NCBI RefSeq assembly: GCF_041438805.1
Contig: NZ_CP109190.1
Location: 1,550,001 to 1,614,000 of the forward strand
Origin: Streptomyces sp. NBC_01707
Lineage (GTDB): Bacteria > Actinomycetota > Actinomycetes > Streptomycetales > Streptomycetaceae
Reading direction: 5' to 3'
Length of the DNA: 64,000 nucleotides
Part shown: piece by piece, positions 1-35,953 of the stretch
Layout: the number at the start of each line of letters is the position of its first letter
Position numbering within the stretch: position 1 is the first letter of the stretch
Made by a program: the position numbers and the translations under genes
The notes under the pieces: generated by a model
What the model was told of the DNA's origin: nothing
The model's database searches: none
The model's input: the letters and a program-made list of their open reading frames with translations, nothing else

Positions 1-1
1 G

Positions 2-2215
2 GGCTACGACTCCCTCACGGAAAGCAGGCTGTGGACCACCGTCGCGGGTGTCATCTGGATCGGCGTCATGACCGCGATCTGCTACATCGGCATCGAGATC
101 TCGGCTGCCATGCAGCGATGGCTCCTGTTCATCGAGGTGGCCGTGCTGTTGCTGTTCGCCATCACCGCCCTGGTCAGGGTCTACACCGGCAACCCCGAGA
201 TGGCGATCCACGTCTCGGCCTCCTGGTTCAACCCCCTCCACGTGCCATCGGCCGAGGCGCTGACGGCAGGCATCCTCGCCGCCGTCTTCATCTACTGGGG
301 CTGGGACACCGCCGTCACGGTCAACGAGGAGACCGCGGACAGCACGCGCACCCCCGGACGCGCCGCGATCATCTCAGTTGTGCTGCTGTTGGTCATCTAC
401 GCCCTGGTCGCCACCTCGGCGCAGGCCTTCGCCGGAGTCGGCGACGCCGGAACCGGGCTCGGCAACAGGGAGAACGCGGGCGACGTGCTCTCGGGGCTGG
501 GCAACGCCGTCTTCGGTGCCCACGGCGCGGGGCCCCTCTTCTCCAAGCTGCTGATCCTCATGGTGCTGACGTCCGCCGTGGCTTCCGCCCAGACGACCAT
601 CCTCCCCATGGCCCGGACCGTCTTCTCCATGGCCGCGCACAAGGCCGTCCCCTCCAGATTCGCCCGCCTGCACCGCAGATTCCTCACCCCGACCTGGTCG
701 ACCGTCTCCTTGGGCCTGGCCTCCGTCGGCTTCCTCGTCCTGCTGACGGTGATCAGCGACAACGTCCTCGCCGACTCCATCGAGTCGGTCGGGCTCGCGA
801 TCACGTTCTACTACGGCCTCACCGGCTTCGCCTGTGTCTGGTACTTCCGCAGGGTGCTCACCCGCAGCCGCAGGGACTTCCTGTTCAAGGGCCTGCTGCC
901 GGGTCTGGGCGCGCTGACGATGCTCTTCCTCTTCTGTTACGCCGCCTTCGTCGTCTACGCCGACCCCGAATACGGTGCAACCGTCATCGACCTGCCGTTC
1001 ATCGGACTGACGGGCGGGGTCACCGTCGTAGGCCTCGGAGCCCTGCTGCTCGGCGTCGTACTGATGCTGGTCGTCACGCGTGAGCACGCCGCGGCCCTCA
1101 GGCTTCAACGCAGTCTGCTTCCCCACCGGCTGCCGCAGCCGACCGCTGTCGAGATGGCGAGCCGCTATGTGCCCGCCGACAGCCGGTCCGGGGTGGGCGG
1201 CGACTGGTTCGACGTCATCCCGCTGTCGGGAACGCGAGTCGGCCTGGTCGTCGGGGAGGTGATCGGCCACGGACTGCTCGCCGCCGCCACCATGGGGCGC
1301 CTGCGCACAGGCGTACGCGTCCTCGCCCGCCTGGACCTCGACCCGGACGAGCTTCTCTCGCGCCTGGACGACCTGGTCGGGCAGACGGCCAAGGAGCGGG
1401 CGGCCGTTCATGCTGCGGGTGCCACGGGGCCCCGGGAGGACGACGCCCTGGGCGTGACGTGCCTGTACGCGGTGTACGACCCGGTGTCCGGACAGTGCAG
1501 CATGTCGCGCGCCGGAGAGTCGATGGCCGCGGTCGTCCGGTCCGACAGCGGTGTCGCCACCTACCCGGATCTCCCGCCGGGCCCTCCGCTTGGACTGGGT
1601 GGCCTGCCCTACGAGACCACGGGATTCCAGCTGCCTCAGGGCAGCCTCGTCGCCCTCTTCACCGACGGGCTCATCCAGGCGGCCGCCGACGACGTCGACG
1701 TGGGACTCGGTCTGCTCGCCGGAGCCCTCGCCGAGCACCGGCGTCCCCTGGAAGAACTCTGTGACCGCGCTGTCACGACCCTGGTGCCGGGGCCGGCGAA
1801 CGACGACGCGGTCCTGCTCCTCGTGCGCACACGGATGCTCGACGAACGCCAGGTGGCCGCGTGGGAGCTGACCGCGGAGACGGCGATGGTCGGCAAGGCC
1901 CGCGCCGTGACCACGGGGCAACTCGGAGCATGGGGGCTGGACGAGCTGTCGTTCTCCACCGAACTCATCGTCAGTGAGCTGGTCACCAACGCCATCCGCT
2001 ATGCCGCCGGCCCGATCCATGTCCGGCTCATCCGCGACGAAACGCTGATCTGCGAAGTCGCCGACACCGGACACACCTCACCCCATCTGCGCCATGCCGC
2101 CGCTGACGACGAGAGCGGCCGTGGCCTGTTCATCGTCGCCCAGATGGCGCAGCAGTGGGGCACGCGCTACACGCCCACCGGAAAGATCATTTGGGTGGAG
2201 CAAGCCCTGCCGTAG
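2..2215 (+). CDS. Amino-acid-permease/SpoIIE phosphatase/RsbW-like ATPase fusion (5' end outside window)
   Basis: The frame is open from the window edge, so the N-terminus is missing. Up to about nt 1075 there are nine hydrophobic segments and an APC-superfamily permease pattern (YWGWDTAVTVNEE near nt 294). Without any stop or new start, nt 1079 onward is a PP2C/SpoIIE phosphatase: entry motif LQRSLLP, metal motif GGDWFDVIPL (nt ~1195), GEVIGHG (nt ~1255) and NDDAVLLLV (nt ~1798). From nt ~1850 an anti-sigma-kinase-type ATPase follows, with N-box SELVTNAIRY and GRGLFIV. The usual metal Asp of GDVxGHG is Glu here, so phosphatase activity may be altered. Inference: a membrane solute sensor or transporter that switches a partner-switching (STAS/sigma) pathway in the cytoplasm. 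Domain calls are firm; the signalling role is inferred. Confidence 0.85.
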   Translation, partial: GYDSLTESRLWTTVAGVIWIGVMTAICYIGIEISAAMQRWLLFIEVAVLLLFAITALVRVYTGNPEMAIHVSASWFNPLHVPSAEALTAGILAAVFIYWGWDTAVTVNEETADSTRTPGRAAIISVVLLLVIYALVATSAQAFAGVGDAGTGLGNRENAGDVLSGLGNAVFGAHGAGPLFSKLLILMVLTSAVASAQTTILPMARTVFSMAAHKAVPSRFARLHRRFLTPTWSTVSLGLASVGFLVLLTVISDNVLADSIESVGLAITFYYGLTGFACVWYFRRVLTRSRRDFLFKGLLPGLGALTMLFLFCYAAFVVYADPEYGATVIDLPFIGLTGGVTVVGLGALLLGVVLMLVVTREHAAALRLQRSLLPHRLPQPTAVEMASRYVPADSRSGVGGDWFDVIPLSGTRVGLVVGEVIGHGLLAAATMGRLRTGVRVLARLDLDPDELLSRLDDLVGQTAKERAAVHAAGATGPREDDALGVTCLYAVYDPVSGQCSMSRAGESMAAVVRSDSGVATYPDLPPGPPLGLGGLPYETTGFQLPQGSLVALFTDGLIQAAADDVDVGLGLLAGALAEHRRPLEELCDRAVTTLVPGPANDDAVLLLVRTRMLDERQVAAWELTAETAMVGKARAVTTGQLGAWGLDELSFSTELIVSELVTNAIRYAAGPIHVRLIRDETLICEVADTGHTSPHLRHAAADDESGRGLFIVAQMAQQWGTRYTPTGKIIWVEQALP

Positions 2216-3818: not shown

Positions 3819-4508
3819 TCAGAGGCCGGTGGGAGCCGGGCCCTGGGCGCGCCAGACGGTGCCGCGACGCTCGTGGGCGAACAACTCCTCGACGGCGTGG
3901 GCGATCCGAGGGCCCACTTCGCGCTCCAGCAGGTAGAGGCCCAGGTCGATCCCGGAGGTGACGCCGGCGCCGGTGACCAGGTCGCCGTCGTCGACGACAC
4001 GGGCGTGAACCGCATGGACTCCGGTGGCGTCGAGCATGTCGAGGCCCATGTGGTGGGTGGTGGCGTGACGGCCCTCGATCAGGCCGGCCATCGCCGGCAC
4101 GAGCGAGCCGCCGCACACCGCGCCGACCGTCACCTGCGGATTGTTCATGGCCGCTTTCAGCAGCGCCGGCAGTTCGGTGTTCAAGGTGCGGCCCAACAGG
4201 ACGGGGATGAGGTCGTCCTGCTGCTGTTCGCCCGTCCCGGCCTCCAGGTCAGGTGTTTCGCCCGGCTCCCCGACACGGCCCGAGGCGCCGGGAACCAGGA
4301 CCAGGCCCGCACGGCCGGGGTCAAGAGCGGCGGTCGCGCGCAGCGCCAGCCCTCCGGTTCCGCTGACCACCTCGCGGGGCCCCTCCGCGGACACCAGTTC
4401 CACACTCACCGCCCCGCCGGAGGCGGTGCCACCGGCGTACAGCACCTCGTAGGGGGCGACGACATCCAGCGGATCGAAGCCGTCGAACAGGACGATCTGG
4501 GCGTGCAT
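3819..4508 (-). CDS. DJ-1/PfpI-family protein
   Basis: A 229-residue single-domain DJ-1/PfpI (class I glutamine amidotransferase-like) protein. It opens with IVLFDGFDPLDVVAPYEVL, typical of the GlxA/isonitrile-hydratase-like subgroup, and has the nucleophile elbow AVCGGS with its cysteine at about residue 125. Start 4508 is chosen for the strong GAAGGAAG ribosome binding site. The longer reading to 4568 lacks one. It is divergent from a regulator whose N-terminal domain is of the same superfamily, so regulator and enzyme may recognise the same small molecule (inference). The substrate is unknown. Confidence 0.8.
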   Translation of the reverse strand: MHAQIVLFDGFDPLDVVAPYEVLYAGGTASGGAVSVELVSAEGPREVVSGTGGLALRATAALDPGRAGLVLVPGASGRVGEPGETPDLEAGTGEQQQDDLIPVLLGRTLNTELPALLKAAMNNPQVTVGAVCGGSLVPAMAGLIEGRHATTHHMGLDMLDATGVHAVHARVVDDGDLVTGAGVTSGIDLGLYLLEREVGPRIAHAVEELFAHERRGTVWRAQGPAPTGL

Positions 4509-4714
4509 GGAACTTCCTTCACGTGCGAGGAACCGGATCTGTACCGGGTCGACCTCGACGCTATGCACATTTCATTCGACGGCCCAGTGGCGTTAGTGAC
4601 ATGTATCAACGGAATATCGCCATCGTCAGACCATGGGCCTTGAGCTGGACATATGGTCGCGAGTGATTCCCCCACAGCCGAGTCTTCGCTACGGCGGGGA
4701 GGTATGTTCTGGCC
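4509..4714. promoter_or_regulatory. Divergent promoter region between DJ-1 protein and GlxA-type regulator
   Basis: These 206 nt separate two genes read away from each other and must hold both promoters. The stretch 4565-4620 is markedly less GC-rich than its surroundings. TGGCG at about 4587 and CGCCA at about 4619 form a loose inverted pair. No clear -35/-10 pair or perfect operator was found. Confidence 0.4.
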
Positions 4715-5653
4715 ATGCACACCGTCGCCGTTCTCGCCCTGGACCAGGTGATCCCCTTCGACCTGTCCACCCCGATCGAGGTCTTCGCCCGCACCCGCCT
4801 CCCGGACGGGCGCCCCGGCTATCAGGTCCGCGTGTGTGCTGAGCAGCCGGATATCGACGCGGGCACCTTCCGTCTGCGCGCCCCCTGGGGGCTCGACGGC
4901 CTCAAGGACGCCGACACGATCATCGTGCCCGGCACCGCCCACACCACCGCCCCGCTCGCCACCGCTGTCCGCGACGCGCTGCGCGCCGCGGCCAAGGACG
5001 GCACACGTATCGCCTCCATCTGCTCGGGTGCCTTCCCCCTCGCCGCCACCGGCCTGCTGGACGGCCTGCGCGCCACCACCCACTGGATCGCGGCCGGTCC
5101 CCTGGCCGCCGCCTACCCGGCCATCGAGGTCGACCCGGATGTCCTGTACGTCGACAACGGGCAGATCCTCACCTCGGCAGGAGCCGCCGCCGGCCTGGAC
5201 CTGTGCCTGCACATGATCCGCAGCGACTACGGCTCGGCCGTCGCCGCCGACGCCGCACGCCTGTCCGTCGTCCCTCTCGAACGCGAGGGTGGCCAGGCGC
5301 AGTTCATCGTCCACGACCACATTCCCACCCCGCGGGGCTCCGCGCTCGAACCCCTGCTCACCTGGCTCCAGGAGAACCTGAGCCGCGATCTGACCCTCGC
5401 CGACATCGCCGCTCAGGCCGGATTCAGCACGCGGACACTGATCCGGCATTTCCGCGAACAGACCGGGGTCACCCCGCTCCAGTGGCTCCACCGGGCCCGC
5501 ATCCGCCAGGCCCAGCACCTTCTGGAGACCACCCGGCATTCGGTCGAACGCATCGGTGCCCAGGTCGGCTTCGGGTCGCCCACCGCCTTCCGCGACCGCT
5601 TCCGACGCACCACCGGGGTCAGCCCCCACACGTACCGGCGCTCCTTCAGCTGA
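4715..5653 (+). CDS. GlxA-type AraC-family transcriptional regulator
   Basis: A 312-residue protein. Residues 1-185 form a DJ-1/PfpI domain (MHTVAVLALDQVIPFDLSTP, elbow SICSGAF). Residues ~215-312 form an AraC/XylS double helix-turn-helix with TLADIAAQAGFSTRTLIRHF and IGAQVGFGSPTAFRDRFRR followed by TGVSPHTYR. The first domain usually senses a ligand and the second binds DNA. GGGGAGGT lies about ten bases before the ATG. It is divergent from the DJ-1 protein gene and probably controls it and itself through the shared 206-nt region (inference from layout). Confidence 0.9.
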   Translation: MHTVAVLALDQVIPFDLSTPIEVFARTRLPDGRPGYQVRVCAEQPDIDAGTFRLRAPWGLDGLKDADTIIVPGTAHTTAPLATAVRDALRAAAKDGTRIASICSGAFPLAATGLLDGLRATTHWIAAGPLAAAYPAIEVDPDVLYVDNGQILTSAGAAAGLDLCLHMIRSDYGSAVAADAARLSVVPLEREGGQAQFIVHDHIPTPRGSALEPLLTWLQENLSRDLTLADIAAQAGFSTRTLIRHFREQTGVTPLQWLHRARIRQAQHLLETTRHSVERIGAQVGFGSPTAFRDRFRRTTGVSPHTYRRSFS

Positions 5654-5832: not shown

Positions 5833-7695
5833 TCAGGGCCGCCTCGCACAGGTCTTCTCCCCCGCCACTGCTTGCAGCACCAGTACCGAGAGGTCGTCCT
5901 CGACCGGCCCCGTCCCGAAGTCGTGCGCCGCCCGTCGCACGTGCTCCGCAAGCGCCTTCGCGCTCAGGCCCATTCCCTGCCTGAGCACGTCGGCCAGACC
6001 GTCGTTGTCGTCCAACTGCCAGTTGCCGCAGCGGCGTTCGGTGACGCCGTCGGTCACGCACAACAGCGTCTCACCGGGCGCGAGGTGGAAGGTGGCGGCC
6101 CGGAATTCGGCGCCCTCATCGATACCGAGCAACATCTGGGGTACGGAGGCCGGTTCCACCCTGCCGTCGGCGCACATGTGCAACGGCGGAGGATGGCCCG
6201 CGGTGGCGACCGTGCAGTGGGCTCCGGGCACGCCCGGGTCGACCGTGAGCTCCCCGTACAGCAGGCTGAGGAAGCGGGAACCGGACTGCTCGGCACCGAG
6301 CGCGAATGCCTCGGCGCTCTCCTCCGCCATGGCGACGTTCAGCCGGCCCAGCACCGACTCGACGCCGTGGCCCTCACGCGCCAGCAGCCTCACCAGGTGG
6401 CGGGCCAGGCCGGTGACGGACATCGCCTCCGGGTCCTTTCCCTGTACGTCCCCGAGCAGGAAGCACCAGTGGTTCTCGCCCCTCGGGAAGATGTCGTAGA
6501 AGTCGCCGCCGACGGTCTGCCCCTCGCCGTGCGGTTCGTAGACGATGGCCGTGTCGACGCCGACGATCCTGGCCAGGGTCGCCGGCAGCTGCCTGCGCTG
6601 GAGCGCGGCGCTGATCCTGCGCTGCCGGGTGTACTGGCGAGCGGTGAACACGGCCTGCGCGACCCTGCGGGCCACATCCTGGACCATCCGCACCACGGTG
6701 TCGGTCATCTGTGGCTGCCCGGCCCGGCCGAGCAGCAGTACACCCTGGTCCGTGTCGCGGGCGATGAGTGGGAAGGCGAACGCCGACCCGCCCTCATGGG
6801 CGATGCCGGCACTCTCCGGCCAGGGCCAGGGCGTACCCCCGATGCGGATCGCGGACGGCGGCGGCATCCGTTCCAGTTCCTCGCGCAGCGGAGTGATGCG
6901 CTGCTCGTCGGTATGCCAGACCCGGGACAACTGCACGCCCATCCCGGGCATGCTCAGCCAGATGCCGCACCAGTCCGCGAGCCGGGGTACGAGCATCTGG
7001 GCCGCGAGCGCGGTGACCATAGCCTCGTCGAGCTGGCCTGCGAGGAGTTCGCTGGTCTCGGCGAGGAACGACGGGCCCCCACGGTCGGTCCACTCGGCGG
7101 CGTATCCCTGGGCGTGCGCCGGATGTACGGATGGCCCTGCATCATAGGGCTGTGCGTCGCTGTGGCGCCCGGTGGCACCGGGCCCGGAGGCCGCCGCATC
7201 TGTCGCGGCAGTGTCTTCCTCCGCGGCCTCCAGCCGGAACCAGACCCGCTTCTCCGCCCGCCGGTAGGTCACGCCCCAGGACTCCGAGAGTGCGCTCACC
7301 AGCTGGAGGCCGTAGCCGGGCTCGCCACGCCTGGTGTCCGCTCCGCCGCGTACCCCTCTGGAGGGGTGGCGGTCCGCGACCTCCACGACGACACCCAACC
7401 GGGTGTCCGGGTTGCGCTCCAGCCGGCAGACCACGTCGATATCGGTGCCGGCGTACATGACGGCGTTGGTGACCAGCTCGCTGACGAGCAGGACGGCGTC
7501 GTCCACGAGCTCCTCGGGGATCGCCATCGGAACAGGGGCTCCGACCACATCGACGGTCGACGCCTCGTCCCCGTTCACGGACGGCACTGTCCACCCCTGG
7601 AGCGCCGCACACACGAATTCCCGCGCCCGGGCGGCCGCCAGCTGGTTCGCCGACAGCCCCTTCCTGGACACGGATTCGGTCGCGTGTACGGACAA
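5833..7695 (-). CDS. ATPase-GAF-SpoIIE phosphatase signalling protein
   Basis: A 620-residue cytosolic protein. Residues ~15-155 form an RsbW-like ATPase with SELVTNAVMYAGT and GYGLQLVSALSESWG. Residues ~200-355 are GAF-like. Residues ~370-610 are a PP2C/SpoIIE phosphatase with LQRRQLP, VGGDFYDIFP, GDVQGKDPEA and VEDDLSVLVLQ, all metal positions intact. The start is TTG at 7695 behind AAGGGG. Kinase-type ATPase and phosphatase in one chain suggest it can set the phosphorylation state of a STAS partner both ways (inference). It is divergent from the poly-HAMP kinase and shares its promoter region. I recognise no specific named orthologue. Confidence 0.85.
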   Translation of the reverse strand: MSVHATESVSRKGLSANQLAAARAREFVCAALQGWTVPSVNGDEASTVDVVGAPVPMAIPEELVDDAVLLVSELVTNAVMYAGTDIDVVCRLERNPDTRLGVVVEVADRHPSRGVRGGADTRRGEPGYGLQLVSALSESWGVTYRRAEKRVWFRLEAAEEDTAATDAAASGPGATGRHSDAQPYDAGPSVHPAHAQGYAAEWTDRGGPSFLAETSELLAGQLDEAMVTALAAQMLVPRLADWCGIWLSMPGMGVQLSRVWHTDEQRITPLREELERMPPPSAIRIGGTPWPWPESAGIAHEGGSAFAFPLIARDTDQGVLLLGRAGQPQMTDTVVRMVQDVARRVAQAVFTARQYTRQRRISAALQRRQLPATLARIVGVDTAIVYEPHGEGQTVGGDFYDIFPRGENHWCFLLGDVQGKDPEAMSVTGLARHLVRLLAREGHGVESVLGRLNVAMAEESAEAFALGAEQSGSRFLSLLYGELTVDPGVPGAHCTVATAGHPPPLHMCADGRVEPASVPQMLLGIDEGAEFRAATFHLAPGETLLCVTDGVTERRCGNWQLDDNDGLADVLRQGMGLSAKALAEHVRRAAHDFGTGPVEDDLSVLVLQAVAGEKTCARRP

Positions 7696-16892: not shown

Positions 16893-18134
16893 CTACAGGC
16901 GCAGAACGACGAGGACGATGTCATCGCGGGCGCCGGCGCTGACGCCGAGGCGGGCGAGCACGGCATCGGCGAGGCGTTGGGGGCTGAGGCCGGTGAAACG
17001 GGCAAGTGCGTCGGTGAGGCGGTGCAGACCGGCGTCGATGTCCTCGCCGCGGCGTTCGATGAGACCGTCGCTGTAGAGCACGAGAGTGTCGCCAGGGGTG
17101 TAGGACAGTTCTGCCTGAGGTCGGGGGACGGGTTTGGGGCGGGCTCCCAGCGGCGGGTCGGTGGCCCGGTCGAGCAGGTCGAAAGTGCCGTCGTGGTGGA
17201 CCAGGACCGGCGGGAGATGTCCGGCGCTGCTGTAGGTGATGCGGTGGCTGCGAGGGGCGATGACGACTTGGACCGCGGTGGTGGCCAGCGCACCTTCGAC
17301 CGAGCGCGCGTACAGCCCCAGGACCTCCAGCGCCTTGGCGGGCTCGTGGCGGGACCGGACGGCGGCGGACAGCGCGCTGCGCAGCATTCCCATGACGGCG
17401 GCGGCCTCCAGGCCGTGGCCGACGACGTCACCGACGGCCAGGGCGCAGCCGCCGTCGGGCAGGTCGACCAGGTCGTACCAGTCGCCGCACACGTTCAGGG
17501 AACCGGCGGCGGGCAGGTAGCGCACCGCGACGTCGCGATGCCGGGCCAGGTCGGGCGAGTAGAGCATGGCCTCCTGCAGAGTGACGGCGACCTGGCGTTC
17601 GCGGGCGTGAGCCAGGCGCAGCTCCTCGTTCAGCCCCTGAAGCTCACGCGCCCGTGCGTACAGTTCGGATTCCATCGCCTCCCATTTGCCGAGGTCCCCA
17701 CCTCCTCGCGGGCGGGAGGGGTGGGACAGCACGAAGGCGGTCACGTCCTCCACCCGGTGGATGATCCACGCCACCTGCCCGTCCGGCCCCGGCACGGGGG
17801 TGTTGATCGGGGACCACCATCGCTCCTCGAACACGCCGGGCTTGTCGGCAACCGGGATGTCGTACTTCTGCACCGCCATCGTGTCCGGCTCCTTGGAGCG
17901 CAGTGCCCGGCGCAGGGAGGCGCCCAGGTTCTGGACCCCGTCGGCACCCGGATCTGCGGGATTGTCGGGGAATGCGTCGAAGATGTACTGCCCGACCAGC
18001 TCGTCCCGAGTGCGGCCCGTCGCTGTCAGATACGCCCGGTTGACGTCGATGATCACCAGGTCGGGACCGAGCACCAGGTAGGGGCTGGGCGTGGCGGCGA
18101 ACAGCGCCTGGTAGTCGATCCGTGGTGTCGTCAC
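16893..18134 (-). CDS. PAS-SpoIIE phosphatase
   Basis: A 413-residue soluble protein. Residues 5-125 form a PAS fold (YQALFAATPSPYLVLGPDL; DVNRAYLTATGRTRDELVG). Residues ~150-185 are a coiled coil and ~190-413 a PP2C/SpoIIE phosphatase with LQEAMLY, VCGDWYDLVDL, GDVVGHGLEAAA and ARDDIVLVVLRL, all metal-binding acids present. It starts with GTG behind GGAGA. It belongs to the RsbU/RsbP-like class that dephosphorylates anti-anti-sigma factors (family knowledge). The PAS cue is unknown. It is divergent from the next phosphatase gene across a 660-nt gap holding a small ORF. Confidence 0.88.
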   Translation of the reverse strand: MTTPRIDYQALFAATPSPYLVLGPDLVIIDVNRAYLTATGRTRDELVGQYIFDAFPDNPADPGADGVQNLGASLRRALRSKEPDTMAVQKYDIPVADKPGVFEERWWSPINTPVPGPDGQVAWIIHRVEDVTAFVLSHPSRPRGGGDLGKWEAMESELYARARELQGLNEELRLAHARERQVAVTLQEAMLYSPDLARHRDVAVRYLPAAGSLNVCGDWYDLVDLPDGGCALAVGDVVGHGLEAAAVMGMLRSALSAAVRSRHEPAKALEVLGLYARSVEGALATTAVQVVIAPRSHRITYSSAGHLPPVLVHHDGTFDLLDRATDPPLGARPKPVPRPQAELSYTPGDTLVLYSDGLIERRGEDIDAGLHRLTDALARFTGLSPQRLADAVLARLGVSAGARDDIVLVVLRL

Positions 18135-18797: not shown

Positions 18798-21686
18798 ATG
18801 AATGCTCGGTTGGCCCTGCTTAACAGCGTGGAACAGGGCGTCGCGGAGGGCGAGGTGCTGCGGCTCGCGCTCCAGCACGCCGTCGCCGAGCTGGACGGCC
18901 TGGGCGGGACGGTGCACCTGCGTGGCCCCATGTCGGCGCTGCGTCTGGTGTCGGTGACCGGACTGCCCCCGGCCCTTGTCCGGCCGTGGGAGATCATCGA
19001 CCAGGAGGACGACGCGGTCCCGGCCCGGGCCGTGCGCCAGGGCACCGGCGTGTGGGAACTCCACGACACCTCAGGCACGTCGGTCGCCGACTGGCCCGGC
19101 ACGGGCCTGGCAGCCGTACCGATGTTCGGCGCGGATCGCCCGGCCGGCGCCCTCACCGTGGTGACGGGTGCGTCGGGAGAGCCCACCAGGAAGCATTGGG
19201 ATTTCCTCGCAGCGGTCGCCGCCTGGGCGAAGGAGCGAATGATCCAGGCCCGGCCACCCGCCCGCCCTGCCCGGGAGGAACCGAGTGGCAACTTCCTGCG
19301 GCAGGCGCTCAAGGCCGTCCAGGTAGGCACCTGGGACTGGAACATCCGTACCGGCGCACTGTCCTGGGACGACGCGGCCATGGCCGTCTACGGCACCGAG
19401 CCCGCCGACTTCACGCCCCAGGTCGAGAGCTGGATGAAGGTGGTCCACCCCGACGACGTGCCGTGGGCTCTCGCCGCCGTCGAGAAGGCGATTCGCACCC
19501 ACGGTGTATTCCAGGCCGAATACCGTGTACGACGCCCCGACGGCAGTTACGGCTGGACCCAGGCGCGCGCAAGGGTGGTGCTCGACGAGGCGGGCGAGCC
19601 CTACCGGATGATCGGGACGGCATGGGACAGCAACGAGTCCCGGTCCGCCCGCGACGCGCTCAGCCACGCTTTGCGCCACATGAGCGATGGGTTCCTCTCG
19701 GCGGACGACGACTGGCGGGTCACCTTCGTCAACCTGGAGGCGGAAGGCCTGCTGGGTTCCTCCGAGGAGGAGCTGTTCGGCCGCGTGCTGTGGACACTGC
19801 CCGCCGTGCAGCAGGTCCCCGACATGGAGGCCCGTTGTCGCCGGGCCGCCGCCACGGCCACGCCCGCGGGCTTCGATGTGCACATGCCGGATACAGGACG
19901 CTGTTACCACCTGCGGCTCGTCCCGGTGCCCGACGGCGTCACGCTGTACTTCACCGACGTCACCGAGATGCGCAGACACGAGGCCGAGCGCATCGCCACC
20001 GAGACCGCCTCCGCCGAGCGCGCCTCGCGCATCACGGAGCTGACCGCAGCGCTCGCCACGGCGACCACGTCACGGGACGTGGTGGACGCGGTGGCCCAGC
20101 GGGTACTGCCGCCGTTCCGCGCCACCGGGCTGCTCGTACAGGCCGTCGAGGGCAACCGGGTCCGCAACGTCGGAGCCGTCGGCTACCCCCGCGCATTCCT
20201 CGAGCGAGTCGACGGCCGTTCGCGAGTCCCGCATGACCCCGTCTGGGACGCGATCTCCACCCAGGGGCCGCTGTTCGTCTCCTCGCCCGAGGAATACGCG
20301 GCGCGCTATCCCGCCATGGCCGACCACCCGCAGGACATCGGCAAGCAGTCCTGGGCGTTCCTGCCGCTGACGGCCGCCGGGCACACCTTCGGCGTCTGCG
20401 TGATCGTGTTCGACCGACCGCGCCACCTGGCCGACGAGGAGCGCACACTGCTGACCGCCATCAGCGCCCTGGTCGCGCACGCCCTGGAACGCGCACGGCT
20501 CTACGACGCCGAGCACACCCGGTCCCGGGAACTGCAGCGCGCGCTGCTCCCCCGGACACTGCCCGACCTCCCGGCGTGCACCACCGCGGCCCGGTACCTG
20601 CCCGCCGGCCACGGCATGGACGTCGGCGGTGACTGGTACGACGTCATCCCGCTCTCCGCCGGACGGGTCGCGCTCGTCATCGGCGACGTGATGGGCCACG
20701 GCCTCTCCGAGGCTGCCACGATGGGACGGCTGCGCACGGCCGTTCACACCCTGGCCGACCTCGAGCTGCCACCCGACGAGATCATGAGCCACCTCAACGA
20801 CATCGTCAGCGGCCTCGGGGAGGACTCGTACGCCACGTGCCTGTACGCGCTCTACGACTCCACCACCCGGACGTGTTCCATCACCCGCGCCGGGCACCCA
20901 CCACCGGCAGTGGTCCACCCCGACGGCACCGTGCACTTCCCGCATCCGGTCCCCGATCCGCCCCTGGGGGTGGCAGAGCCGCCGTTCGAAACGGTGGAGC
21001 TGACGATGCCACCGGGAAGCCTCCTGGTGCTGTACACCGACGGCCTCATCGAATCGTCCGAGCGCGAGATCGACCAGGGCATGACGGATCTGGCGCAGCT
21101 CCTGCGCACCAGGGAGAGCGAAGACCTGGACCTGCTGTGCGAGTACCTCATCGCCGGCCTGCTCCCAGCCGGAGATCACACCAGCGACGACGCCGCCCTC
21201 CTGGTCGCCCGTGTGCACGCGCTCAGCCCGGACCACATGGCCTCCTGGCCACTCCCGGAGGACCCCCAGGCAGCGGGCCTGGCCCGCAGGCACGTCCGGG
21301 AGCAGCTGTCCACGTGGGGGCTGGACGACATGGCGACGACCACGGAACTGCTCGTCAGCGAACTGGTCGGGAACGTCGTGCGTCATGGGAGGGGCCCGCT
21401 GCAGCTGCGGCTGCTGCTCGACGCCGACCTGGTCTGCGAGGTCTCCGACGGCAGTCTGACCATGCCCAGGGTCCGCCACGCGTCCGAGACGGACGAGGGC
21501 GGCCGGGGACTGCAGCTGGTCGCCGCACTCTCCCAGCGGTGGGGTACTCGCTACACCGCTGCCGGCAAGTGCATCTGGACCGCGCAGACGATGCACGGAG
21601 CCGACGTCGCGGCTCCGCCCCCGCCGGAATCCGACACGGACGCCGGCGCGCCCCCCGAATCACCGCTTGACGCCGAGCACGCCTGA
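18798..21686 (+). CDS. GAF-PAS-PAS-GAF-SpoIIE phosphatase-ATPase sensor protein
   Basis: A 962-residue cytosolic protein with, in order, GAF (~10-150), PAS (~165-285, GTWDWNIRTGALSWDDAAMA), PAS (~290-400), GAF (~420-570), PP2C/SpoIIE phosphatase (~575-810: LQRALLPRTLPDL, GGDWYDVIPL, GDVMGHGLSEAA, SDDAALLVA) and RsbW-like ATPase (~820-930: SELVGNVVRHG, GRGLQLVAA). The ATG has no ribosome binding site, but TATACA ends 8 nt before it, so the message may be leaderless. The C-terminal half has the same domain order as the permease fusion at the left edge. It converges with GH15 copy two, with 7 nt between stops. Confidence 0.9.
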   Translation: MNARLALLNSVEQGVAEGEVLRLALQHAVAELDGLGGTVHLRGPMSALRLVSVTGLPPALVRPWEIIDQEDDAVPARAVRQGTGVWELHDTSGTSVADWPGTGLAAVPMFGADRPAGALTVVTGASGEPTRKHWDFLAAVAAWAKERMIQARPPARPAREEPSGNFLRQALKAVQVGTWDWNIRTGALSWDDAAMAVYGTEPADFTPQVESWMKVVHPDDVPWALAAVEKAIRTHGVFQAEYRVRRPDGSYGWTQARARVVLDEAGEPYRMIGTAWDSNESRSARDALSHALRHMSDGFLSADDDWRVTFVNLEAEGLLGSSEEELFGRVLWTLPAVQQVPDMEARCRRAAATATPAGFDVHMPDTGRCYHLRLVPVPDGVTLYFTDVTEMRRHEAERIATETASAERASRITELTAALATATTSRDVVDAVAQRVLPPFRATGLLVQAVEGNRVRNVGAVGYPRAFLERVDGRSRVPHDPVWDAISTQGPLFVSSPEEYAARYPAMADHPQDIGKQSWAFLPLTAAGHTFGVCVIVFDRPRHLADEERTLLTAISALVAHALERARLYDAEHTRSRELQRALLPRTLPDLPACTTAARYLPAGHGMDVGGDWYDVIPLSAGRVALVIGDVMGHGLSEAATMGRLRTAVHTLADLELPPDEIMSHLNDIVSGLGEDSYATCLYALYDSTTRTCSITRAGHPPPAVVHPDGTVHFPHPVPDPPLGVAEPPFETVELTMPPGSLLVLYTDGLIESSEREIDQGMTDLAQLLRTRESEDLDLLCEYLIAGLLPAGDHTSDDAALLVARVHALSPDHMASWPLPEDPQAAGLARRHVREQLSTWGLDDMATTTELLVSELVGNVVRHGRGPLQLRLLLDADLVCEVSDGSLTMPRVRHASETDEGGRGLQLVAALSQRWGTRYTAAGKCIWTAQTMHGADVAAPPPPESDTDAGAPPESPLDAEHA

Positions 21687-34157: not shown

Positions 34158-35953
34158 GCGACCATCTCCGCCTGTGCGACGAGCACGGCAATGTCGTCCG
34201 CACCCGCCGCGCGGAATTCCACAACAGCCGCTGCCAGCCGTTCGGCAAAACCTTGAGCCTCACCGGCCCCCTGCTGCGCCACCGCGTCCTGCAGGCAGGA
34301 TTCGAAGAATGTTCCGTCAGCCGCTCTCGCCTCGGTCACCCCGTCGGTGAACAGCACCAGCGCGTCCCCCGGCGCCATATGCGCCGACCCAGATCCGTAC
34401 TCGATTTCATCCAGTACGCCCAGTAGATCCCCGTGGGCCGCGAGCTCCTCCACAGCGCCATCCTCACGCCGCACCAAAGGCGCCGGATGCCCGGCACTCC
34501 AATAACGCAGGCGAAATCCCCTTCCGTCCGACACCAGTACCGCTACGAGCGCTGTCACGAAGCGGAACGTGCCCTCCCTGACCAGAGTCTGGTTCAGCCG
34601 TCCCAGCGCGTGCTCGGGCGTACTGCCGTCCTCGAGCAGGGTGCGCAGGGTATGGCGGGCCAGACCAGTGAGTGCCGCAGCCTCCGCCCCGCGACCACAG
34701 ACGTCACCGATAAGGAGCGTCACACTGCCCTGCGCCCCCGGGACAGCGTCATAGAAGTCACCGCCCACATCTAGCGATTCATCGCCCACTTCGTATGCCG
34801 AACTCAGAGTGAGACCCGAAATCTGCGGTAGCTCTCTCGGTAGCAGATGCCGCTGGAGAGAGACCACGTGCCGGCGCCGCTGTTCATGGAGGGTGCTCGT
34901 ATCGATGGCCAACGCGGCCCGGTCTGCAAGATCGGCAAGGAACAGAGAGGCCACCTCAGCGATGTCCACCCGGTGGTACAGGAACGTCAGAGTGCCCAGA
35001 GCCCGCCCCCGAGCCTTGAGCGGATTCACACTGAGCGCACGCACAGCACGCCCCGCCCCGGACGAGGTGGTCCCGAAGGGACCTCCTGCCAGCTCGTCAC
35101 CTTGCAACACCAGCCCCTGCCCGCCGTTGACGACCTGCTGCAACACATCCGTGAGCCAGAGGTCCTCGGCCGCGACCACACCGAGCCACTGCTGCTCGCC
35201 CGCGTCCATATGTGAGAAGGCCACGGGAGTCAGTCCGCGGGAAAGACACAGATGCAGGACGCACCCCTCGGCGACAGCGGGAACAGCCGTCCGAGCCACC
35301 CGTCGCACGGTCCTCTTCACATCAAGGCTCGAATCCATCTGCAACGACGCCTCCGCCAGGAAGGCGTCACTCACCTGACGCAGCTCATCCTCGCGCCGCG
35401 CCACGATGCGCCTGTTGGAGACCATGGTGACCTCAGCCACCTGCTTCAACCGGGTCCGTAGCGTCACATCGGCTGCGTCCCTCTCTGCGGTGCCGACCAT
35501 GAACGACGCCCAGCCGCCCTGCCCCAGCGGCACAGCACACAAGGCCACACTCCGCGCGCCCGCTGCTGCCAGAATCTGGGCATGCGGCATAGCACCGTCG
35601 AGTTCCGACACCTCGTGAACCGTGACAGTCGGATCGCCGCCCGGAGCCCCGGCGGCGGCAGATTCGCCAAAATCCTGTTCGAATTCCACGAACGATGGCG
35701 TGGGCTCCGCCAGGGTGACACTACGCAGATAGTGCAGCAGCCCACCGCTCCAGCGGGTGCCCACGACGGCCAGTACGCCGGGCATACGGAGCAGCATGTC
35801 GTAGAGGGAACCGGCCAGCTCGGTCACGTCCTGCGCGCTGTCGGCGAGACTCCAGAGCTCATGCAGACGGCTGGACCACCATCCGTCATCCGCCTGACAG
35901 GAAGCTTTGCCCTCGTGCTGCTCCACCGCTGATCCGCCGTTCCGTAATACCAC
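34154..35953 (-). CDS. GAF-SpoIIE phosphatase coupled to the phytochrome-linked regulator
   Basis: A 599-residue soluble protein. Two GAF-like regions (~30-185 and ~190-365) precede a PP2C/SpoIIE phosphatase (~375-595) with LQRHLLPRELPQ, VGGDFYDAVPG, GDVCGRGAEAA, LFTDGVTEAR and ADDIAVLVA; metal-binding acids are intact. It starts with GTG 35953 behind GGAG at good spacing. It is the first gene of a two-gene operon with the response regulator, and that operon converges on the phytochrome gene. The inferred route is light, then phytochrome, then regulator, then phosphatase and a STAS protein, giving light control of a sigma factor. The STAS target is not in the window. Confidence 0.87.
   Translation of the reverse strand: MVLRNGGSAVEQHEGKASCQADDGWWSSRLHELWSLADSAQDVTELAGSLYDMLLRMPGVLAVVGTRWSGGLLHYLRSVTLAEPTPSFVEFEQDFGESAAAGAPGGDPTVTVHEVSELDGAMPHAQILAAAGARSVALCAVPLGQGGWASFMVGTAERDAADVTLRTRLKQVAEVTMVSNRRIVARREDELRQVSDAFLAEASLQMDSSLDVKRTVRRVARTAVPAVAEGCVLHLCLSRGLTPVAFSHMDAGEQQWLGVVAAEDLWLTDVLQQVVNGGQGLVLQGDELAGGPFGTTSSGAGRAVRALSVNPLKARGRALGTLTFLYHRVDIAEVASLFLADLADRAALAIDTSTLHEQRRRHVVSLQRHLLPRELPQISGLTLSSAYEVGDESLDVGGDFYDAVPGAQGSVTLLIGDVCGRGAEAAALTGLARHTLRTLLEDGSTPEHALGRLNQTLVREGTFRFVTALVAVLVSDGRGFRLRYWSAGHPAPLVRREDGAVEELAAHGDLLGVLDEIEYGSGSAHMAPGDALVLFTDGVTEARAADGTFFESCLQDAVAQQGAGEAQGFAERLAAAVVEFRAAGADDIAVLVAQAEMVA

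Follow-up and report, generated by a model that had tools for sequence, protein, structure and literature searches.

Transporter-like membrane domains attached to signalling outputs, even to SpoIIE-type phosphatases, are already known. CbrA, in which an SLC5 transporter and a histidine kinase share one protein, has been described as a rare transceptor (PMC13022988); it transports histidine (PMC7096432), and the available CbrA literature also mentions SLC5-STAC units fused to diguanylate cyclases. For partner-switching PPM phosphatases, the available text of PMC12143880 describes activation of RsbU by RsbT, which orders the RsbU linker into a coiled coil and thereby dimerises the phosphatase, names the RsbU N-terminal domain, PAS, GAF, response receiver and HAMP domains as sensors, and puts forward the idea that one sensor domain can be swapped for another across PPM phosphatase linkers. 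Here we describe a gene at the start of a 64,000-nt stretch of Streptomyces sp. NBC_01707 (NZ_CP109190.1, positions 1,550,001 to 1,614,000; the window hereafter) that encodes, in order, a 12-helix APC permease, a SpoIIE/RsbU-type phosphatase and an RsbW-like ATPase. Since a transporter stands in the place of a sensor and relatives have kept the fusion, it is probably a nutrient sensor wired directly into a gene-expression switch.

The original prediction, that the permease reads without a stop into SpoIIE and then into the ATPase, is borne out both by the reading frame and by Pfam. Window positions 2-2212 form a single open frame that ends in a stop codon at 2213-2215, with no stop near nt 1075. 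The gene begins 413 bp ahead of the window, and the missing N-terminus was recovered from the 9.9-Mb genome, the full frame being G000:C1:1549588-1552215, 875 aa from GTG. Translation might start at ATG (L031:9567) or, more likely, at GTG (L031:9588; stop at L031:12213-12215), which is favoured because 27 of 28 orthologues examined in the genus have it, the exception being L045. A Pfam scan of the 882-aa form that starts at ATG reported four families at E 0.001: AA_permease (PF00324, residues 46-464, most of the permease domain; 82.8 bits against a cut-off of 24.6), SpoIIE (PF07228, residues 555-755; 147.8 against 25), HATPase_c_2 (PF13581, residues 769-876; 46.1 against 27.4) and HATPase_c (PF02518, also above cut-off at 30.3 bits). 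At this threshold the protein gave no match to PAS or STAS, nor to SLC5 (SSF) or HisKA. Its NCBIfam matches all fell below cut-off, the best being to amino-acid transporters, ethanolamine permease and RsbA-type anti-sigma proteins.

The same architecture, sought in other actinomycetes, was found uninterrupted in many genomes. The genome draws overlap, and the searches scored the best two to four candidates per genome at strict E-values (1e-100 to 1e-250), such that a much diverged fusion would escape. On this basis the full-length fusion is present in 28 of 392 genus genomes, the source genome included (31 places in all in the full-protein search), in 25 of 297 family genomes, with one more cut by a contig end (G567), and in 17 of 197 order genomes, all 17 of the source genus. 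Full-length matches in the class draw (345 genomes) were confined to the source genus (G000, G502, G497), and the single carrier among 296 phylum genomes was the source genome itself. Orthologues are 68-87% identical to the source protein. Where contigs are named, the fusion is present at 32 of the 80 best permease loci, and its carriers include Streptomyces atratus, S. avidinii, S. echinatus and S. hygroscopicus as well as Kitasatospora humi, K. aureofaciens ATCC 10762 and Streptantibioticus ferralitis. The original prediction had allowed that a stop or frameshift near nt 1075 might separate two genes; this was looked for and not found, and the fusion stands. That assembly or sequencing error joined two genes there is a possibility we regard as practically nil, as the identical uninterrupted junction recurs in dozens of independent assemblies, which rules out a sequencing frameshift. 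Alignments that continued beyond a stop hinted at split fusions (G489, G409, G431, G524, G609, G406, G417); these were also discarded, the fetched places being standalone permeases with any nearby SpoIIE gene separate. Two side observations belong here: G308 carries equal-scoring copies on opposite strands near both chromosome ends (C1:120840-123458 and 10201027-10203645), presumably in terminal inverted repeats, and the Streptomyces lilacinus fusion locus (L261) is interrupted by a stretch of N that separates permease from phosphatase. Among 53 SpoIIE-bearing frames read in the source genome, out of its 82 SpoIIE matches, only the fusion has at least seven membrane-like segments before the phosphatase, the others having 0-4, and no other transporter-SpoIIE fusion was seen in this, the one genome in which such fusions were sought.

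Where the two halves came from can be read from their unfused relatives. Many matches in the genus, family and class lists span residues 503-882 only, at 54 to 73% identity; on inspection by eye, nine such frames look like sensor-type proteins (L084 is out of frame in its N-terminal part), and L168, which with L167 is nearest among the sensor-type relatives, scans as PAS, PAS, GAF, SpoIIE, HATPase. Matches to the permease only are standalone genes of about 490-550 aa. From the genus, family and order searches, 46 of 54 full-length fusion places entered the comparisons; those left out were the second G308 copy, G456, G512, G575, G593, G625, G1239 and G1241, along with the cut G567, and the 32 named fused loci served for the structure model only. 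In quick tree searches, unrooted by any outgroup and with the Shimodaira-Hasegawa-like approximate likelihood ratio test (SH-aLRT) as sole support, the fusions form one clade both among C-terminal modules (46 fusions and 21 sensor-type proteins; SH-aLRT 98) and among permeases (46 fusions and 63 standalone permeases; SH-aLRT 100). The former clade adjoins a pair from genus code g7 (support 91); the latter has as its neighbours ten standalone permeases, nine of them g14 and the other g7, which group with it at a support of 98. That each half forms a single clade shows, at the level of sequence, a single origin in an ancestor within the Streptomycetaceae, by in-frame joining of an APC permease gene to the linker, phosphatase and kinase of a PAS-PAS-GAF-SpoIIE-HATPase protein, the permease replacing PAS-PAS-GAF. 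Judged by these alignments, the C-terminal half is an ordinary streptomycete SpoIIE-HATPase module, and the permease occupies its sensor slot. Writer and eraser of STAS phosphorylation are thus both present as domains of one polypeptide, as originally claimed, but such a pairing is ordinary in streptomycetes (PAS/GAF-SpoIIE-HATPase), and it is the transporter alone that stands out.

Permease and linker meet at a sharp junction. Directly after the last transmembrane (TM) segment comes the linker, TREHxxALxLQRSLLP in most fusions, which sensor-type proteins carry after GAF, and in an AlphaFold2 model of an orthologue with the same numbering (L214) TM12 and the linker form one helix, residues 477-510. 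The modelled permease has a LeuT-type fold with TM1 and TM6 broken, and Rv1364c (3KE6) is both the top Foldseek match and the best phosphatase sequence match. The substrate was also sought by homology, a route we rejected because the permease is only 15% and 18% identical to ApcT and GkApcT. A functional link between the two parents is suggested, though not decisively, by SpoIIE genes that lie immediately downstream of a standalone permease, in the same orientation, at six of 67 loci (three contexts), where chance, from 82 SpoIIE matches per 9.9 Mb in the source genome, would give about 0.5 (the downstream sequence is short at L171, 1.1 kb, and L205, 2.2 kb). The neighbours are GAF-SpoIIE-HATPase in L093, PAS-SpoIIE in one of three g3 loci (L155, the one scanned) and PAS-GAF-SpoIIE in one of two g16 loci (L159, likewise). 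These six loci (the others are L160, L164 and L165) may preserve a pre-fusion arrangement. Separately, in two Streptosporangiales contigs from metagenome-assembled genomes (L274, L285) a HATPase-only frame begins about 2 kb downstream of the permease.

The phosphatase and ATPase domains have fared differently since the fusion. In the ATPase, the E and N of the N box, the D and G of G1 and two glycines of G2 are each present in 46 of 46 fusions. In the phosphatase the aspartate of GGDW is likewise invariant, and three further aspartates vary: the GDV position is D in 37, N in 5 and E in 4; the TDG position is D in 29; and the first of the DD pair is D in 21, E in 12, V in 12 and N in 1. At least one of these three is changed in 33 fusions, two in 18 and none in 13. 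In 24 sensor-type modules (the 21 above with L074, L078 and L087), a set chosen by closest resemblance to the source protein that may favour intact phosphatases, the same positions are D in 24, 20 (the other 4 being N) and 24, with one of the three changed in 4 of 24. We take these aspartates to be metal ligands, as in homologous PP2C/SpoIIE phosphatases; glutamate could partly replace aspartate, and in DVD forms the neighbouring aspartate could help. The source protein has D, E, D and D at the four positions, and its GEVIGHG in place of GDVxGHG had been read, correctly, from the DNA. The further suggestion that the balance is tipped to the kinase side is upheld for the family, with ATPase motifs complete and phosphatase aspartates eroding, but for the source protein alone a single D-to-E change is weak evidence, because other SpoIIE paralogues of the same genome show GEV, GNV, GHV and GSV. 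We accordingly dropped the idea that GEV is a peculiarity of this protein, several paralogues varying at that position. Four of these (L297, L301, L305, L306) have GHV, GSV, GEV or GNV for GDV, and altered phosphatases may be common in streptomycetes.

Selection was gauged from ratios of nonsynonymous to synonymous substitution (dN/dS) in pairs picked from the trees; the NG86 estimates are rough on GC-rich genes and serve for comparison between groups only. Medians over 12 close fusion pairs are 0.31 for the permease, 0.34 for SpoIIE and 0.18 for HATPase, every pair lying below 0.6 in all three domains; for unfused relatives they are 0.16 (standalone permease, 13 pairs), 0.22 (sensor-type SpoIIE, 7 pairs) and 0.12 (HATPase, the same 7). 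Every part of the fusion is thus under purifying selection, weaker than in unfused relatives, with the kinase least affected. Might the fusion then be a product of chance gene joining that has little function and is drifting? Its patchy occurrence, its varied genomic context, the loss of phosphatase residues and the raised dN/dS in all three domains would fit; a single origin that has left 46 uninterrupted frames, ratios well below 1 throughout and invariant ATPase box residues speak against it, and we consider drift very improbable.

The reading we favour, with somewhat better than even confidence, is that the fusion is a transporter-derived membrane receptor, or 'transceptor', that drives partner switching with an output tending toward the kinase. 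As suggested by the model and by the published RsbU mechanism, substrate binding or an inward/outward change of the LeuT-fold permease would move TM12, and this motion would pass as one helix into the linker, controlling dimerisation and activation of the phosphatase as in RsbU/RsbP-type proteins. Going by their families, the phosphatase and the RsbW-like kinase would then determine how far a STAS antagonist, encoded elsewhere, is phosphorylated, and its state would free or sequester a sigma factor. In the many descendants that have lost phosphatase aspartates and kept kinase motifs, the output may have shifted toward a regulated kinase or toward anti-sigma binding. Coupling through a continuous helix is plausible but unproven.

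Several observations weigh against this receptor reading. It is in favour of that reading that, of 166 permease columns near-invariant in 102 standalone rows (some genomes entering twice; L210, L211, L261 and L289 dropped; L202, L205, L212, L213, L260, L263, L275, L276 and L280 missed by the pattern), 130 survive in 95% or more of the 46 fusions, the YWGWD of TM6 included. Near-invariant positions are nevertheless altered at P90A (46 of 46), T341 (45), Q128 (43) and Y383 (40), and others in part of the fusions, D119N in 18 and A44G, at the TM1 break, in 17; L445M is found in all 46. Taken with a permease dN/dS about twice that of standalone relatives, these changes mean that the permease may transport or bind ligand differently, or no longer do so. 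The structure model is a monomer with a predicted template modelling score (pTM) of 0.67, whereas the proposed mechanism needs a dimer. In CbrA, according to the available text, signalling by the kinase does not depend on the SLC5 domain, although autokinase activity appears to be modulated by it, and the effect of histidine was not significant (PMC7096432). Around the fusion, simple-script gene calls found no gene family, besides the fusion, common to more than 7 of 30 fusion loci, and no STAS match was found in the 64-kb window; the source genome has 10 PF01740 and 12 PF13466 matches (one below cut-off), all outside it. A link to the general stress pathway, which the original prediction had drawn, was consequently not borne out, while the design it proposed, a transceptor for partner switching, retains an architecture that is real, conserved, of single origin and with the permease in the sensor slot.

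Some of these points would suit a permease that merely anchors phosphatase and kinase near the membrane, or transports independently, with the two halves uncoupled. The dispensable SLC5 domain of CbrA, whose ligand had no significant effect, is a precedent (PMC7096432, available text), and the fusion-specific permease changes and relaxed constraint agree with it; an anchor, however, would have no need of TM6 and most near-invariant permease positions, which are kept, nor would it call for TM12 and linker to be joined without a flexible spacer, with the signalling helix retained. We think such a tether unlikely. The reverse direction of control, in which the partner-switching module, STAS-loaded or unloaded, gates the permease, seems less likely still, given that the C-terminal module derives from proteins in which sensor domains precede it and that the permease is under weaker constraint than its standalone relatives.

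It is tempting to go beyond the receptor reading and to see here bacterial transceptors of a new class, in which an APC transporter, with transport reduced or given up, has become a ligand-gated, kinase-dominant membrane anti-sigma factor, signalling by a helix from TM12 to the PPM linker while the phosphatase decays to a signal-transmitting pseudophosphatase; we put this forward as a tentative and rather doubtful proposal. In the fusion, nature has in any case put a complete transporter into a PPM sensor slot, in what the trees show to be one event; both parents still have close relatives in the family, and the orthologues form a series that loses phosphatase residues and retains kinase motifs. 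How a sigma-factor switch can read out the conformation of a transporter could be tested directly on it, and it may reveal that nutrients feed into the control of development or stress in streptomycetes.

Table 1. Features of the fusion gene, in window coordinates.
Feature	Position	Strand	Remarks
APC-type permease domain, in-window part	1..1075	+	Gene begins upstream at G000:C1:1549588; 12 TM helices in full protein, TM1 and TM6 broken
Last TM helix continuous with SpoIIE linker helix (predicted), residues 477-510; junction at 1076 (TREHAAALRLQRSLLP)	1016..1117	+	Model of L214 orthologue, same numbering; linker matches GAF-to-SpoIIE linker of sensor-type relatives
SpoIIE/RsbU-type PPM phosphatase domain	1160..1831	+	PF07228 at 1229-1831, GGDWFD motif ahead; aligns to Rv1364c 3KE6
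Glu replacing Asp in G(D/E)VxGHG motif (here GEVIGHG)	1256..1258	+	46 fusions: E 4, N 5, D 37; sensor-type relatives D 24/24
RsbW-like GHKL ATPase/kinase domain	1871..2194	+	PF13581; six N, G1 and G2 box residues each 46/46 fusions
Stop codon of fusion gene	2213..2215	+	Open-frame reading

Elsewhere in the window lie four more of the genome's 82 SpoIIE matches (5872-6477, 16896-17459, 20658-21218 and 34172-34732, besides the fusion's own at 1229-1831). The first belongs to another partner-switching protein (5833-7695, minus strand) with the reversed order HATPase, GAF, SpoIIE in Pfam. Divergent genes at 3819-4568 (minus) and 4715-5653 (plus) presumably encode proteins of DJ-1/PfpI and AraC-regulator type. 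Seven of the 30 fusion loci (L110, L111, L113, L115, L118, L120, L124) lie near a common gene family (c2), several of them also with c11, which by eye resembles ribosomal protein L21.

The combination of APC permease, partner-switching phosphatase and kinase in one protein was not found in the literature searched for it (2012-2026), an absence that is no proof, and ApcT, GkApcT and other APC transporters differ from the fusion in having no SpoIIE-HATPase module. The nearest characterised analogue, in the available texts on the SLC5-STAC histidine kinases CbrA and CrbS (PMC7096432, PMC13022988, PMC5715377), is CbrA: transporter and signalling output likewise share a chain, and CbrA is described as LeuT-type, but the transporter is SLC5 rather than APC, the output is STAC-PAS-histidine kinase, and a 30-residue, partly disordered linker leads to STAC where in the fusion the last TM helix is predicted to run into the linker helix. 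The 5TMR receptors with a PPM/SpoIIE domain also join a transporter-related membrane fold to a SpoIIE-type phosphatase; theirs is the S-component fold, not a 12-TM APC permease, and the available account mentions no kinase domain (PMC11109136). Rv1364c (RsbU-RsbW domains, 3KE6) shares the order of partner-switching phosphatase then kinase in one chain, unlike the fusion with a PAS sensor ahead and an anti-anti-sigma (STAS) domain behind (PMC12143880, available text). Closest of all in sequence are the streptomycete PAS-PAS-GAF-SpoIIE-HATPase proteins, of which L167 and L168 are nearest in the tree: their C-terminal module is up to 73% identical over residues 503-882, with the same linker and the same order of phosphatase and kinase, and they differ in having PAS and GAF sensors where the fusion has its 12-TM permease, and in aspartates that are intact in 20 of 24.
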